Notes under the pieces: generated by a model | Databases searched by the model: none | Seen by the model: the letters and a program-made list of their open reading frames with translations, nothing else | Told to the model about the DNA's origin: nothing | Made by a program: the position numbers and the translations under genes | Assembly: GCF_020524085.2 (NCBI RefSeq) | Contig: NZ_CP129016.1 | Coordinates: 2,040,001 to 2,104,000, forward strand | Source of the DNA: Halobacillus litoralis | GTDB lineage: Bacteria; Bacillota; Bacilli; Bacillales; Halobacillaceae | Reading direction: 5' to 3' | DNA length: 64,000 nucleotides | Shown: piece after piece, positions 23,207 to 60,174 of the stretch | Layout: every line of letters begins with the position of its first letter | Numbering within the stretch: the stretch's first letter is position 1

Positions 23207-23233
23207 TGAAACCTTTTAAGAACTTATTGCGTA
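23207..23233 (+). promoter_or_regulatory. ECF sigma-W-type promoter of the PspA operon
   Basis: TGAAAC (23207-23212), 17 bp, CGTA (23230-23233) matches the sigma-W consensus TGAAAC-N16/17-CGTA. The start codon is about 40 nt beyond. In B. subtilis the pspA operon (ydjFGHI) is a sigma-W target. Confidence 0.75.
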
Positions 23234-23275
23234 CATACAGGTACACAGGGTCACAGTTGAAGGAGAGGTGAAGAT

Positions 23276-23788
23276 TTGGGTTTCTTTTCTAGATTGTTTT
23301 CGAAAAATGAGAAGCAGGCACCAGAAGTGAAAGAGCGAACACCATTGAATATCCAAGTCGGGGACATTGTCACATACGATCTTGTGGATTATGAAGTTGT
23401 TGGGAAAATTACGTATCGTGACGGAGGTTACGAGTGGTTCTCTTATCAGCTATTGGAAGGGAATCAAACAAAGTGGCTGGCAGCTGAAATGGATGATGAG
23501 CTGGAATTAGGGGTGTATGAGACGGTCAAACTCCCTGTATCCATGCCCTTCCCTGAGAAACTTGAGTATGAGGGCCAAACCTTCTTCAAAGATGAAGAAG
23601 GAGAAGCGCGGGTTACGGGAGAAGGAAGAAGTACGAACATTAATGGGCGTACCTCCCGATATGCGGAGTATATCTCAGAAGATGAAGAGACGTATTTAAG
23701 CCTTGAATCATGGGGCAGTGAAGTAGAAGTCAGTGTAGGGTATGACATAGAAGCCTATGAAATCAAAATCCTGGCAGGTTCAAAATAA
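23276..23788 (+). CDS. DUF4178-domain protein
   Basis: 170 residues, cytosolic, beta-rich (NIQVGDIVTYDLVDYEVVGK, YRDGGYEWFSYQLLE, WLAAEMDDELELGVYETV), with features of DUF4178. The function is unknown. Related domains recur beside PspA, DUF350 and spermidine-synthase-like genes in other bacteria, so it probably belongs to an envelope-stress module. The TTG start is supported by GGAGAGGTG just upstream. First gene of the operon, 12 nt before pspA. The N-terminal MGFFSRLFSKN resembles a short amphipathic membrane-contact helix, like that of PspA. Confidence 0.75.
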   Translation: MGFFSRLFSKNEKQAPEVKERTPLNIQVGDIVTYDLVDYEVVGKITYRDGGYEWFSYQLLEGNQTKWLAAEMDDELELGVYETVKLPVSMPFPEKLEYEGQTFFKDEEGEARVTGEGRSTNINGRTSRYAEYISEDEETYLSLESWGSEVEVSVGYDIEAYEIKILAGSK

Positions 23789-23800
23789 GGAGGAAGAAAA

Positions 23801-24472
23801 ATGTTTAAATTTTTTAATCGTGTAAAGACAGTCGTAGGTTCAGAGTTAAACGCTATGTTGGATAAAGCAGAAGACCCTGTGAAAATGCTTGATCAATTCA
23901 TGCGTGATATGGAGAATGACATCCGTGAAGCTGAAAGTGCGGTAGCCAAGCAGATTGCTAACGAGAAAATGTTGAAACGAAAATACGATGACTCTCAGGC
24001 TCTTGTAGATAAGCGGATGCAGCAGGCAGAGAAAGCCATTGAAGCAGGAAATGAAGATTTGGCTCGTCGTGCCTTGGAAGATAAGAAGAACCATCAGGAT
24101 CAGGCAGATCAATTCAAGGCTTCCTGGGAGCGTGCTCAACAGGATGCGAATAACCTTCGTCAAAAGCTCGATGAAATGAAGAAGGAATATCAGGAAATGA
24201 AATTGAAGAAAGATTCCTTGAAAGCACGTGCCGAATCTGCGAAAACACGTACTAAAATGAACCGTACCATGTCGAACATCGGCGGAGATCAGTCACGCCA
24301 AGGTTTTGAACGTATGGAAGAAAAAGTCATGCACTATGAAGCAGAAGCTGAAACGAGTGAGGATATGTCTTCACAATCCCGCTCCTTAGACGATGAATTT
24401 GAAGATTTGGATAACAAAGGCAGTGTAGACAGTGAATTGGAAGCGCTGAAGAAAAAGATGAACAAAGAGTAA
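23801..24472 (+). CDS. pspA: PspA/IM30 family membrane-stress protein
   Basis: 223 residues, almost entirely coiled-coil. The N-terminal amphipathic helix MFKFFNRVKTVVGSELNAML contacts the membrane, followed by the family region KAEDPVKMLDQFMRDMENDI. PspA proteins oligomerise into ESCRT-III-like helices that shield damaged membranes and limit proton leak. The RBS AAGGAGG overlaps the end of the previous gene's spacing. No pspF or pspBC is present; as in Firmicutes, control is likely by an ECF sigma factor. A 162-nt gap with two hairpins separates it from the next gene. Confidence 0.92.
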   Translation: MFKFFNRVKTVVGSELNAMLDKAEDPVKMLDQFMRDMENDIREAESAVAKQIANEKMLKRKYDDSQALVDKRMQQAEKAIEAGNEDLARRALEDKKNHQDQADQFKASWERAQQDANNLRQKLDEMKKEYQEMKLKKDSLKARAESAKTRTKMNRTMSNIGGDQSRQGFERMEEKVMHYEAEAETSEDMSSQSRSLDDEFEDLDNKGSVDSELEALKKKMNKE

Positions 24473-24488
24473 TCTCTGGTCTAACATT

Positions 24489-24609
24489 CGTGCCTGGCTT
24501 AGTGGTCAGGCACGGCTGTTTTATGGACTGGAAAATAACAAATTCCGAGTCGTGGATGGATTGCCTTACTATTGACATCCGGCTTTAGCGCTCAGTGTAA
24601 CCTGAGCGA
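24489..24609 (+). other. Two hairpins in the pspA to DUF4247 gap
   Basis: CGTGCCTG (24489-24496) pairs with CAGGCACG (24507-24514), followed by GCTGTTTTAT: a weak terminator or processing site. A second hairpin, CGCTCAG-TGTAAC-CTGAGCG, lies just before the next ribosome binding site. A weak promoter-like TTGACA (24572-24577), 18 bp, TGTAAC lies between. They could lower expression of the distal genes relative to pspA. Confidence 0.5.
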
Positions 24610-24634
24610 TTGTTATGTGGAAGGAGGATGTGTG

Positions 24635-25303
24635 TTGAAAGATTATGCAGGGATCATAGTCGTAGGAATCATTGCCTTTTTCTTATTGTTCAATGTATTC
24701 GGTGGGAATGACCAAAGAGGGATGTCCGGTTCTTATACCGAAGATACATATGGAGAACTACCTTCAGAGCCTGATCGGTCAGAGATACTAAGTGGGTTAG
24801 AAAATTCAGAAACAAACGATATCGAATCGCTGATTCAGAATCATTTCCCCTTATTGGATACAGTCCGATCTGATCAGGGCATCTCTAGAATTTATATGAC
24901 AAAAGAATTGTCGTTAACCGAGGTCTCAGATTCTTTGACCTCAGCTATTCCTCCTGAAGAAATAAGTGAAAGGCAGGAAAATAAGCAAGCTCTCATTTAT
25001 CCTGATCATTTTGTGATCCTCCAGGAAAGTACGGAAGAACCTGGGGTCATTACAATTGAACTTGCATCAGATGATTTTGTGAGAAATCATTATTCTCCCG
25101 GTTTCTTTAGTGGGTTATTTTTAGGATCTATTCTTAACCGTTCTTTGGGATCTAATGACTGGTATGAGCGCCGAAGGGCCAATTGTCAGCAAACAGGGAA
25201 CTGTTATGGTGGATATGGGATGTACGGGAATTATAATTCAGGTGGAACCACTTCTATGAGAGGGTCATCGAATCGTGGTGGAGGTCCTGGTACAGGAAAA
25301 TAA
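24635..25303 (+). CDS. DUF4247-like membrane-anchored protein
   Basis: 222 residues from TTG 24635 (AAGGAGG upstream). There is one N-terminal membrane helix at about residues 6-24, then an extracellular or cytosolic alpha/beta domain (residues about 60-165, ISRIYMTKELSLTEVSDSL, DHFVILQES). A second hydrophobic Phe/Gly patch (PGFFSGLFLGSILNRSLG) follows, then a Gly/Tyr/Asn-rich tail with two cysteines (NCQQTGNCYGGYGMYGNYN). The arrangement fits DUF4247, which keeps company with DUF350 and aminopropyltransferases. Function unknown; 14 nt before the DUF350 gene, so cotranscribed. Confidence 0.65.
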   Translation: MKDYAGIIVVGIIAFFLLFNVFGGNDQRGMSGSYTEDTYGELPSEPDRSEILSGLENSETNDIESLIQNHFPLLDTVRSDQGISRIYMTKELSLTEVSDSLTSAIPPEEISERQENKQALIYPDHFVILQESTEEPGVITIELASDDFVRNHYSPGFFSGLFLGSILNRSLGSNDWYERRRANCQQTGNCYGGYGMYGNYNSGGTTSMRGSSNRGGGPGTGK

Positions 25304-25317
25304 AGGAGGTTATCATT

Positions 25318-25713
25318 ATGGAACCATTTTTGGCTACGTTAGGTTATTTTGTAATGGCAATTGTGATTGTTGTAATTGGATTGGTTATCTTCGAATGGTT
25401 AACCAGGCAGTATAAGGATTGGGAAGAGGTAAAGCAAGGGAATCAGGCAGTGGCGATGTCAATTGCAGGAAAAATCATCGGCATATGTATTGTTCTGTCA
25501 TTCGCAATCTATCATAGTTTCACTGTATGGGATACGTTGATTTGGGGAGCGTACGGGGTTGTACTTCAAATGATTGCCTACCTATTGTTTGAATTGTTCA
25601 CACGCAAGTTTTCTGTAGAAACGAAATTAAAGGAAAATAATACAGCGGTCGGAATCATTACAATGGGTGTATCGATCGGTTTAGCTTTTGTTATCGGTGC
25701 GTCGATTACATAA
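25318..25713 (+). CDS. DUF350 (YjfL/UPF0719) membrane protein
   Basis: 131 residues with four transmembrane helices arranged as two repeated pairs, the typical DUF350 layout (residues about 8-28, 47-67, 75-95, 108-130). E. coli YjfL, in the yjfIJKLMC cluster with a PspA homologue (YjfJ), is the best known relative; its function is unknown. RBS AAGGAGG is 7-8 nt before ATG. It sits between the DUF4247-like gene and the polyamine-synthase-like gene. An intrinsic terminator follows 21 nt downstream. Confidence 0.85.
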   Translation: MEPFLATLGYFVMAIVIVVIGLVIFEWLTRQYKDWEEVKQGNQAVAMSIAGKIIGICIVLSFAIYHSFTVWDTLIWGAYGVVLQMIAYLLFELFTRKFSVETKLKENNTAVGIITMGVSIGLAFVIGASIT

Positions 25714-25734
25714 CGGCCTTGGAATATTTGAGAG

Positions 25735-25769
25735 AAGCCACTATGATCCATTCTCATAGTGGCTTTTTA
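25735..25769 (+). terminator. Intrinsic terminator inside the PspA operon
   Basis: A 12-bp perfect stem (25735-25746 / 25754-25765) then TTTAA, only 28 nt before the next start. It should reduce, not abolish, expression of the following two genes, since no promoter is evident in between. Confidence 0.8.
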
Positions 25770-25797
25770 ACATTCAAGTTTAAGTGGAGTGAACGAA

Positions 25798-27345
25798 GTG
25801 GAAGCGAATATTAGAAAAAGTCATTTTATATACTGGGCCTCAGGCATTGTTTCCATTTGTGGGATTATTTTTGAAGTGTTATTTGGGGCTCTTGGATCTT
25901 ATATTCTTGGTGATGGTGTAAAACAGTACACATTGACAATCAGCCTGTTCCTTACCGGGATGGGGATTGGTGCGAGCATAAGTGAGAGAGTGATGAAGCA
26001 ATTGATTGTCACCTTCATCTGGATTGAATTCATGGTGGCCTTAATCGGTGGCTTTTCCAGCTTCACGATGTTTGGGATGACAGCTTTTGCTCCCTCAGGA
26101 ACGGATGCTCTGTTCTTATATTTAGTCACATTCACCATTGGTGCACTGACCGGTCTTGAGCTGCCTATTCTTATCAGAAAGGCAAATGAAATAGGTGTAG
26201 AGCTCAACAGGAGCACGGCGAGGGTACTGTTTTCTGACTACGCAGGTGGATTGATCGGTGGTCTGCTGTTTGCTTTCTATCTCAGGCCGCAAATGGGTAT
26301 GGTGAAAAGCGCCTTCTTTGTGGCGTGTATCAATTTGGCCGTTGCCGTTTTAGTCTTGTATTTATTCCGCTCTGAAATTAAGACTTTCTCCATCCATTTG
26401 ACAGGAGCCATTATCATTGGCGTCCTTCTTATTGGTGGGCTGTTTTTCGGTGAAGAAATGGCCTTCTCGTTCGAACAGAAGCTGTATAAAGATCCGATCA
26501 TTCATATGGAAGAGAGTGCTTATCAACGGATCGTACTTACAAAGGAGCAGGGAGACACACGTCTTTTCTTAAACGGATCCTTGCAGTTCAGTTCAACAGA
26601 TGAACATCGCTATCATGAAACACTTGTCCATCCTCCCGTCGCTTTTTCTGACAAACATGAACATGTGCTTATCCTTGGGGGAGGAGATGGAATTGCGGCT
26701 AGAGAGTTATTAAAGTATGAGGAAATCAAAGAGATTACGCTTGTCGATCTTGATTCTGCAGTCACAAACCTTGCACGATCCAATTTTCATCTGCTGCAAG
26801 TAAATAAAGGAGCTCTTGATGATCCGAGGGTTCATGTATTGAATAAAGATGCGTTTAAATTTTTGGAGAATGCGGATCAATTCTATGATGTGATTATTAT
26901 CGACCTCCCTGATCCGAATAACGAAAGTCTGAACAAACTCTATACACGGGAGTTTTATTCTTTAGTGAGAAACCATCTATCCCCTGGAGGAGCAGTGATG
27001 ATCCAGGCGACAAGTCCTCTCTTTGCGACAGAAGTGTACTGGACAATCGATAAAACGGTAGCCTCTACGGGACTTTACACTGAGAATTTTCATGTGGATG
27101 TTCCGAGCTTTGGAAATTGGGGATTTATTCTGGCTGCACGGAAACCACTGGCGGTTGAAGAGGTCCAATTTAATGTGGAAACTGAATTTCTAACAGAGGA
27201 AGTTTTTCAATCTATGACAGTGTTTGGAAAAGATGAAGATGGGGAAATCTTGAATGGAGAAGGCCAAGTGGTCAAGTTGGAACCCAATACTCTGATCAAC
27301 CCACATCTTATTCAGAAGTATGAACAAGCTTGGCGTAATTATTAA
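25798..27345 (+). CDS. Membrane-fused spermidine/spermine synthase-like protein
   Basis: 515 residues. The N-terminal half (residues about 10-220) has seven hydrophobic helices. The C-terminal half is an aminopropyltransferase fold: [18 protein letters not shown] binds decarboxylated [12 protein letters not shown] follows, and the catalytic loop is [16 protein letters not shown], retaining the key Asp but with LPDP in place of the canonical SxDP. The domain also has [10 protein letters not shown], the substrate region. It may make a polyamine at the membrane, or use the fold for another purpose. GTG 25798 is chosen for its AAGTGGAG spacing. speD lies 32 kb away and could supply the co-substrate. 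Confidence 0.85.
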
Positions 27346-27374
27346 ATAAGCAATGTTTAAAAGGAGTGTTATGG

Positions 27375-28055
27375 ATGAAAGTTTCTTATCATGGTCATGC
27401 CGTTGTGAAAGTTGAAGCCAATGGAAAGACGATTCTTTTTGATCCTTTTATTTCGGACAACGGGAATACAGATCTCGATGCTGACCAAGTAAAAGCAGAT
27501 GTGATTCTGCTTACTCATGGTCACAACGATCACGTTGGGGACACATTTGAGATTGCAAAAAGAAATGATGCTCAAGTCATCGCTCCGTTCGAGTTAGCTA
27601 CTTACCTTGGAAATAAAGGCCTGAACGCTCACCCTATGTATATCGGTGGAGGTCATGAATTCGACTTTGGACATGTGAAATTCACCCAAGCTTTTCATGG
27701 TTCTTCTTATCAAGAAGAAGATGGAACGATCGTGTACACAGGAATGCCTACAGGTATATTACTAACGATTGATGGAAAGACCATTTACCATGCCGGAGAT
27801 ACCGGATTGTTCTCTGATATGAAGATGATTGGGGAACGGAACGATATTGATCTTGCTTTCCTCCCTATTGGAGACAATTTTACGATGGGACCATCTGATG
27901 CGCTCGTCGCTGCTGAATGGATCCAAGCGAAACAGGTTGTTCCCGTTCACTACAACACCTTTGATTTAATTGCCCAGGATGGGGATGCCTTTGCTCATGA
28001 AGTGAAACCAGGTAAAGGGAAGGCTTTAAAGCCGGGAGAATCCATCGAGCTTTAA
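27375..28055 (+). CDS. ytkL: UPF0173 metal-dependent hydrolase (metallo-beta-lactamase fold)
   Basis: 226 residues, the same as YtkL/UPF0173 proteins. The metal site is [12 protein letters not shown] (residues about 48-59), with further ligands in YHAGDTG and VPVHYNTFD. The hydrolysed substrate is unknown. The ATG at 27375 has AAAAGGAG 8 nt upstream. It lies 29 nt after the spermidine-synthase-like gene with no terminator, so it may be the last gene of that transcript, but in B. subtilis it is next to ytoI without the PspA cluster. Its role in the module is therefore doubtful. Confidence 0.9.
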
Positions 28056-59662: not shown

Positions 59663-59796
59663 TGAACTTCTGAATTTCATATAAATTCATGTCTACTCAA
59701 AGGGTTAGGACCTCTCAGGACTAACTTTCCCCCGTGGTAGTTCATGGCTGTTATTTCAGAGGTATTGAAGTGAATGTACAAAGGGGGATCCTTAAT
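59663..59796 (+). promoter_or_regulatory. Structured speD 5' leader with possible anti-Shine-Dalgarno
   Basis: About 134 nt from the promoter to the ATG. There is a hairpin TGAATTT-CATAT-AAATTCA (59671-59689), then GTTAG (59704-59708) pairing with CTAAC (59721-59725). TCCCCC at 59728-59733 is complementary to GGGGGA of the Shine-Dalgarno (59783-59788). Folding could hide the ribosome binding site. This suggests polyamine or SAM feedback, by inference only. Confidence 0.45.
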
Positions 59797-60174
59797 ATGG
59801 ATACAATGGGAAGACACGTAATTTCTGAATTATGGAATTGTAATGAAGAAAAATTGAACGATATGTCGTATATAGAACAAGTCTTTGTAGATGCTGCTCT
59901 TAAAGCTGGTGCAGAAGTGCGGGAAGTCGCGTTTCACAAATTCGCCCCTCACGGCGTCAGTGGAGTAGTCATCATTTCTGAATCACACTTGACGATTCAT
60001 AGTTTTCCAGAGCATGGATATGCAAGTATTGATGTTTACACATGCGGAGACCGCATTGACCCTAATGTTGCCGCTCAGTACATCGTCGATGCACTAGAAG
60101 CGGGTAAGAATGAAACGGTAGAAGTACCAAGAGGAATGGGACCTGTAGAAGTACAGCAGTCTCGTGCTCTATAA
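59797..60174 (+). CDS. speD: S-adenosylmethionine decarboxylase proenzyme
   Basis: 125 residues, the short bacterial class. It makes decarboxylated SAM, the aminopropyl donor for spermidine. The proenzyme self-cleaves between Glu62 and Ser63 in [14 protein letters not shown], turning Ser63 into the pyruvoyl group; His68 and Cys83 (VYTCGD) are the processing and catalytic residues. ATG 59797 has AAAGGGGGATC; upstream in-frame codons lie in the leader. It is the obvious co-substrate supplier for the aminopropyltransferase-like protein at 25.8 kb. Confidence 0.96.

Follow-up and report, generated by a model that had tools for sequence, protein, structure and literature searches.

What would bring an envelope-stress protein and an enzyme of polyamine synthesis into one operon? 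This question is raised by a 64,000-nucleotide stretch of the Halobacillus litoralis genome (the window; contig NZ_CP129016.1, positions 2,040,001 to 2,104,000), in which five genes on the + strand (23276-27345) encode DUF4178, PspA, DUF4247, DUF350, and a SpeE-type aminopropyltransferase fused to a membrane domain (fSpeE). We read this operon as a sigma-W-controlled envelope-stress module that may put a polyamine on a surface-anchored protein, with fSpeE aminopropylating the terminal lysine of DUF4247, and we consider this reading evenly balanced between right and wrong. New here is a conserved C-terminal lysine tail that moves between DUF4247, DUF4178, and one-helix carriers. The features on which the argument turns are the following.

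23207..23233, + strand: sigma-W-type promoter TGAAAC-N17-CGTA (TGAAAC 23207-23212, CGTA 23230-23233), a 10/10 motif match, kept upstream of Bacillales operons
23276..23788, + strand: DUF4178 protein, 170 aa (open reading frame, ORF; Pfam PF13785, E 5e-35)
23801..24472, + strand: PspA/IM30 family protein, 223 aa (ORF; Pfam/NCBIfam, PF04012, E 3e-49)
24635..25303, + strand: DUF4247 protein, with an N-terminal hydrophobic anchor and a predicted extracytoplasmic domain (Pfam PF14042, E 2e-11)
25274..25300, + strand: C-terminal tail of DUF4247, RGGGPGTGK, whose terminal Lys222 is the proposed aminopropyl acceptor
25318..25713, + strand: DUF350 (YjfL-like) membrane protein, 131 aa (ORF; Pfam PF03994, E 5e-39)
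25789..27345, + strand: fSpeE, start GTG 25789 or 25798, with a membrane domain like half of a major facilitator superfamily (MFS) transporter plus a helix to residue 232, then an aminopropyltransferase domain (237-518)

ORFs, Pfam/NCBIfam profiles, and the exact promoter motif agree on this array, as a sequence-only reading of the region had described it. The neighborhood type has been described by Ravi et al. 2024 as a PspA-CesT/Tir operon with a seven-transmembrane (7TM)-spermidine-synthase fusion, their "second major group", for which they suggest a role in membrane dynamics linked to polyamines, or the aminopropylation of other substrates (PMC11237479). That group shares with Halobacillus the PspA, the 7TM-fused synthase, DUF350, DUF4178, and a surface lipoprotein; the Halobacillus operon differs in having DUF4247 in place of the Ctha_1186 lipoprotein and in its sigma-W-type promoter. 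Among the 8 proteins in and around the Halobacillus operon, which set the extent of the search, none matched the CesT/Tir partner (DUF2170). The available text of Ravi et al. holds no lysine tail, change of carrier, outward domain, or DUF2617/SpeD pattern, and "lysine" occurs 0 times in its main text.

The lysine tail and its carriers

How constant is the end of DUF4247, and does it persist where DUF4247 is missing? All counts refer to a sample of 92 fSpeE neighborhoods: 12 from genomes of the same phylum and the best 80 of at least 567 confirmed loci, obtained by scanning 84,980 species genomes with two motifs of the enzyme. Two duplicate pairs (L040/L074 and L050/L081) leave 90 distinct loci; genes in them were labeled by custom profiles and clustering, with spot checks by Pfam. 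DUF4247 ends in GK in 37/37 proteins of these loci and 63/63 database homologs, usually as RGGGxGxGK, in a survey that leans to tailed members because the tail is part of both the profile and the query alignment. Positions R-9, G-8, G-7, G-6, G-2, and K-1 hardly vary (35 to 38 of 38), while the rest of the protein shows little conservation (28% mean column identity). An upstream ORF ending RGGGPGSGK in a Streptomyces locus also proved to be DUF4247 by Pfam.

Since some loci have no DUF4247, we searched for the tail on other proteins. In 15 loci, many of them clostridial, a DUF4178 protein that has a hydrophobic segment ends in the tail (e.g., SSIRQSSVSSRKSSGGGLSSGK), and in 29 the tail sits on a tiny one-helix ORF (e.g., SVRSGSAGMTSAGGYRYGK). 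A strict tail filter was positive in 73/92 loci and in 0/3404 ORFs more than 5 kb from fSpeE. Because this filter selects on the last residues, the test was repeated by position and hydrophobicity alone, in loci that have fSpeE on the plus strand and no tail already assigned to DUF4247 or DUF4178. A small ORF ending in lysine then followed DUF4178 in 24/24 loci, making up 24 of 32 ORFs overall (the other 8 include two DUF350 frames); the baseline is a C-terminal lysine in 86/771 unrelated ORFs of these loci.

A tail lies within 5 kb in each of the 77 distinct loci that have DUF350 (L128, read by hand, ends GSIK), and in five loci it is on the strand opposite fSpeE. No tail was found in 9 of the 90 distinct loci (L060, L086, L091, L097, L102, L118, L120, L121, and L123), none of which has DUF350 by custom profile and several of which are cut by contig ends. 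Six of the genomes behind them were followed: G459 and G464 (loci L097 and L091) encode DUF4178, DUF350, and a tail ORF with the ending SHK or GGK elsewhere; in G455 and G482 no tail was seen next to a DUF350-like gene; and G468 and G481 gave no DUF350 match. Searches of the open-licence literature did not find the lysine tail, its different carriers, or its relation to enzyme type.

Lysine ends and glycine ends

Why would a lysine matter? The Escherichia coli PspA-DUF350 operon yjfIJKLMC, a parallel drawn by the sequence-only reading that we could confirm, ends in YjfM and YjfC, with ygiBC as a second pair; RefSeq labels YjfC and YgiC peptide--spermidine ligase. Shared with Halobacillus are PspA and DUF350 (yjf) and a DUF1190 protein whose Gly/Ser/Arg-containing tail adjoins a polyamine-handling enzyme. 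However, that enzyme is a GSP_synth ligase (ATP-grasp type), no aminopropyltransferase is present, and the tails end GG, not K. The GG end is found in YjfM, YgiB, and the three further DUF1190 proteins that a set of 185 genomes yielded, a comparison of 5 tails from a single family; of the three other loci, two have a GSP_synth ligase and two a DUF350 alongside, and in the third the stretch is too short for the ligase. Among the Halobacillus operon genes, the set that was searched, there is no GSP_synth ligase, and the tail ends GK. By analogy, an amine-to-carboxyl ligase would pair with a GG end and an amine-alkylating transferase with a lysine end, and this covariation is our main reason to read the lysine as the acceptor.

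The classical aminopropyl acceptor is putrescine, which the lysine side chain, -(CH2)4-NH2, resembles. On our reading the C-terminal lysine of the DUF4247 tail, and not a free polyamine or a lipid, is the probable acceptor of fSpeE. The sequence-only reading had proposed a membrane module that makes or attaches a polyamine; we keep the polyamine at the bilayer and now read its acceptor as this lysine. In diatom silaffins, lysine epsilon-amines of cell-wall proteins bear aminopropyl-derived chains (PMC4557024), there on many internal lysines and in a eukaryote; the available text of that paper names no enzyme.

The fused enzyme

Has fSpeE kept the features of a working aminopropyltransferase? 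The 518-residue protein joins a hydrophobic N-terminal half to a domain with the SpeE-type catalytic fold (PF01564, E 9e-42; NF002956, 605 bits against a cut-off of 472). Residues D300, D372, Y275, and H276 are invariant (60/60) and D354 nearly so (59/60), covering the GGGDG Asp, the catalytic Asp, the adenine Asp, and the Tyr-His/Gln pair, roles assigned by alignment to known enzymes and from their published description. The sequence-only reading saw an altered LPDP catalytic loop, which we reject: D372 and D375 of the D-L-P-D-P loop are both invariant (60/60), and Leu373 at its second position is common to thermospermine synthase, hence ordinary for enzymes of that type. From these residues we infer that fSpeE transfers aminopropyl groups from decarboxylated S-adenosylmethionine (dcSAM).

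Such conservation bears on the proposal that fSpeE senses dcSAM or polyamines without transfer, within a regulatory complex gating a channel or PspA. A potassium-channel-like gene is linked in 8/90 distinct loci, and Ravi et al. proposed monitoring of polyamine concentration (PMC11237479, available text); yet the invariant catalytic residues, and the occurrence in some loci of a SpeD or NspC-like decarboxylase gene close to fSpeE, make a pure sensor improbable in our judgment.

Alternatively, fSpeE could make a free polyamine at the membrane (thermospermine- or spermine-like, or longer), the tail binding in or near the groove as a scaffold or regulator. Its dcSAM pocket and loop are indeed thermospermine-synthase-like (His276, Asp320, and Leu373; best profile match 6bq2), a separate canonical SpeE encoded elsewhere in the same genome could supply spermidine, and the Anoxybacillus SpeE paralog Aflv_1437 was reported to make spermine from putrescine (PMC2614493). 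This is a serious contender that we nevertheless think unlikely, as it gives no reason for a terminal lysine or for a tail on different carriers. Thermospermine synthase and the Thermus agmatine-triamine aminopropyltransferase also differ from fSpeE in being soluble, with their own N-terminal beta-hairpin (the plant enzymes), in having a small-molecule acceptor, and in lacking an Arg before the YH pair.

The membrane part of fSpeE resembles an MFS half, with a six-helix bundle of the MFS type, and the catalytic domain is attached directly to the last membrane helix. The charge pattern predicts that this domain faces outward, as it may do. The same architecture would suit an enzyme that aminopropylates a lipid headgroup, yielding a cationic lipid against envelope stress with the tail proteins as accessories; the invariant Arg274 could bind phosphate, and the sigma-W-type promoter would fit as well. 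Even so, we regard lipid modification as very unlikely, for it leaves the lysine tail without explanation, and no lipid-modifying gene was recognized among the recurrent neighbors.

Possible sources of decarboxylated S-adenosylmethionine

Where would the aminopropyl donor come from? SpeD, the S-adenosylmethionine (SAM) decarboxylase, was found in 9/12 and 38/49 genomes with fSpeE which, with the Halobacillus genome, makes 48 with and 14 without it; the genomes reached via the loci, many of them metagenome-assembled, have no completeness figure, so absence of SpeD is less certain there. DUF2617 occurs in 7 of the 14 genomes without SpeD vs. 0 of the 48 with it (Fisher p 7e-6 over 62 genomes, a guide only, the genomes being related and some metagenome-assembled). 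In 14 control genomes, SpeD was present in 8 and DUF2617 in 2 (Corynebacterium glutamicum and Haloferax volcanii), with no overlap. Near fSpeE, DUF2617 genes lie at L040:6525-7061, L041:9568-10122 (minus strand), L043:6273-6833, and L076:4586-5107 (minus strand), and in three genomes, one of them Candidatus Frackibacter, the gene is within the operon. This complementary distribution, the one basis of the proposal, suggests that DUF2617 is a candidate replacement for SpeD, a yet-unrecognized SAM decarboxylase. Sequence comparison gave no support for descent from SpeD, a reading we set aside (hhalign probability 1.5-2.3%, despite an S-H motif and a Cys in both), and a DUF2617 profile search of PDB sequences returned nothing at E <= 10. 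In the Streptomyces genome of locus L112, a second fSpeE copy (L132, L138) adjoins a second DUF2617, with no lysine tail flagged.

Four Campylobacterota-type loci have an NspC-like pyridoxal phosphate-dependent decarboxylase directly after fSpeE (L077:8864-9928, L083:10409-11518, L084:3780-4835, and L106:10457-11509); SpeD was not found in the three of these four genomes that were searched. G468 and G475, which lack SpeD, have a full-score NspC, and G448, G453, and G472 each combine a full-score NspC elsewhere with a lower-scoring copy at the coordinates of the gene behind fSpeE.

A sigma-W-type promoter in Bacillales

When would the operon be expressed? An exact TGAAAC-N17-CGTA stands about 40 bases 5' of the DUF4178 gene. 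The 10/10 motif (spacer 15-17) was found upstream of 18/33 operons with PspA on the fSpeE strand vs. 2/334 control upstream regions of the same loci (Fisher p ~1e-19, a guide only since the operons are related). Bacillales, assigned from record titles or, for two genomes, from membership of the same order, account for 22 of the 33 operons and for all 18 with the full motif; two others score 9/10 and one has none, and the full-motif count rises to 19/22 once one over-extended start is corrected. The promoter is therefore conserved in Bacillales operons. The 11 operons beyond Bacillales score at most 8/10, and we did not adopt sigma-W control as a general trait of the module. With a SigW ortholog in the genome (313 bits, cut-off 243), the motif match, and the enrichment over controls, the sigma-W-type promoter first noticed from sequence holds up, and the gene cluster is probably switched on by envelope stress.

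Proposed mechanism and its weak points

How might these parts work together? SpeD, encoded elsewhere in the genome, would produce dcSAM, and fSpeE would move aminopropyl groups from it onto the epsilon-amine of the DUF4247 C-terminal lysine, presented by a flexible Gly/Ser/Arg tail. The MFS-half domain, perhaps with DUF350, would pass dcSAM or the tail across the membrane faces to a catalytic domain that, by its charge pattern, would sit outside, while PspA and DUF4178 would keep the machinery on the inner side of the stressed membrane. The product would be a surface-tethered polyamine during envelope stress. Each lineage would supply one decarboxylation step for the same transfer, through SpeD, DUF2617, or an NspC-like enzyme. 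The genes, promoter, tail and residue conservation, and fold matches come from sequence or models; from them we infer catalysis, acceptor, topology, dcSAM transport, the roles of PspA, DUF4178, and DUF350, and the physiological role. Judged on sequence and models, protein polyamination appears to be the best single explanation. The fullest version (an outward, MFS-half-fused transferase with inside-fed dcSAM, a lysine tail on three carriers, and SpeD-less lineages that use DUF2617 as SAM decarboxylase or an NspC-like enzyme on SAM or on the transferred group) is tentative, and in our view somewhat less likely right than wrong.

Several points weigh against this reading. SpeD is missing from 11/49 and 3/12 fSpeE genomes, and the SpeD-less G451 and G477 show none of SpeD, DUF2617, and NspC. 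The DUF4247 members are homologous and were sought with the tail in profile and query, so that 37/37 and 63/63 are neither independent nor unbiased. At DUF350 genes away from fSpeE (L148, L150, and L151), including the second DUF350 of the Halobacillus genome, no tail was found. The tail may also serve in binding or sorting, not as a substrate. As to topology, Foldseek alone gave zero matches at E <= 0.001 for the membrane-only model, and DSSP gives residues 139-192 as one unbroken helix; were that a single crossing, the catalytic domain would lie inside and the tail on the other side. Both the positive-inside rule and the MFS similarity may be misleading. Finally, dcSAM is cytosolic, so an outward catalytic domain would depend on a hypothetical dcSAM route.

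Distribution and gene neighborhoods

How widespread is the module? Full-length fSpeE above the NF002956 cut-off was found in 13/398 genomes of the same phylum, the Halobacillus genome included, and its closest named relatives are from Halobacillus. Within 6 kb of fSpeE, on either strand, the 90 loci contain DUF4178 (77), DUF350 (77), DUF4247 (35), PspA (32), SpeD (22, on the fSpeE strand in 15), flavin adenine dinucleotide (FAD) amine oxidase (21), Band-7/SPFH (11), potassium channel (8), and DUF2617 (4), the last five kinds named by Pfam on examples. By these counts DUF4178, DUF350, and fSpeE make up the recurrent core, which PspA joins mainly in Bacillota. The exact five-gene order recurs in 27/90 distinct loci, bearing out the linkage noted in the first description.

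The FAD amine oxidases share the fSpeE strand (L095:10439-12085, L109:4890-6542, and 19 further loci), mostly with twin-arginine-like starts; the product could be their substrate outside the cytoplasm. At L041:6023-6479, L043:9965-10381, and L115:8500-8942, DUF350 is encoded by two half-size genes in tandem, from which the full-size protein looks like an internal duplication. The same Halobacillus genome has a second DUF350 gene (G000:C1:2123648-2124022, locus L150), outside the window and away from fSpeE, with no lysine tail flagged beside it, and a second PspA-family match (G000:C1:1228054-1228689, locus L002) with one TAG stop within the matched stretch.

The window contains four further features.

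24488..24515, + strand: terminator-like hairpin in the pspA-DUF4247 gap
25737..25763, + strand: terminator-like hairpin in the DUF350-fSpeE gap, followed by T5; absent from the hairpin-scan list
27375..28055, + strand: UlaG-like metallo-hydrolase gene, directly 3' of the operon and outside the conserved module
59734..60174, + strand: SpeD (SAM decarboxylase) ORF, the likely dcSAM source

With two hairpins inside the array, a single full-length transcript is not assured, and the distal genes may be expressed at a lower level. The DUF4247 start, TTG 24635, was chosen for the GGAGG ahead of it, and no lipobox was seen in the N-terminal anchor of the Halobacillus copy. The span first assigned to the operon, 23207..28055, extends past the five genes to take in the metallo-hydrolase as a sixth, which we did not adopt as a module member because its cluster occurs in only 7/90 distinct loci, all close relatives.

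Implications

What would follow for these families? DUF4178, DUF4247, DUF350, and DUF2617, all listed as function-unknown, would gain one role together with a widespread membrane-fused synthase, and PspA-related envelope stress would acquire a concrete link to polyamines. A C-terminal lysine beside an aminopropyltransferase points to a protein modification that may be new, with the E. coli peptide-spermidine ligases as its parallel. If the reading is true, it suggests that bacteria build polyamines directly on cell-surface proteins.

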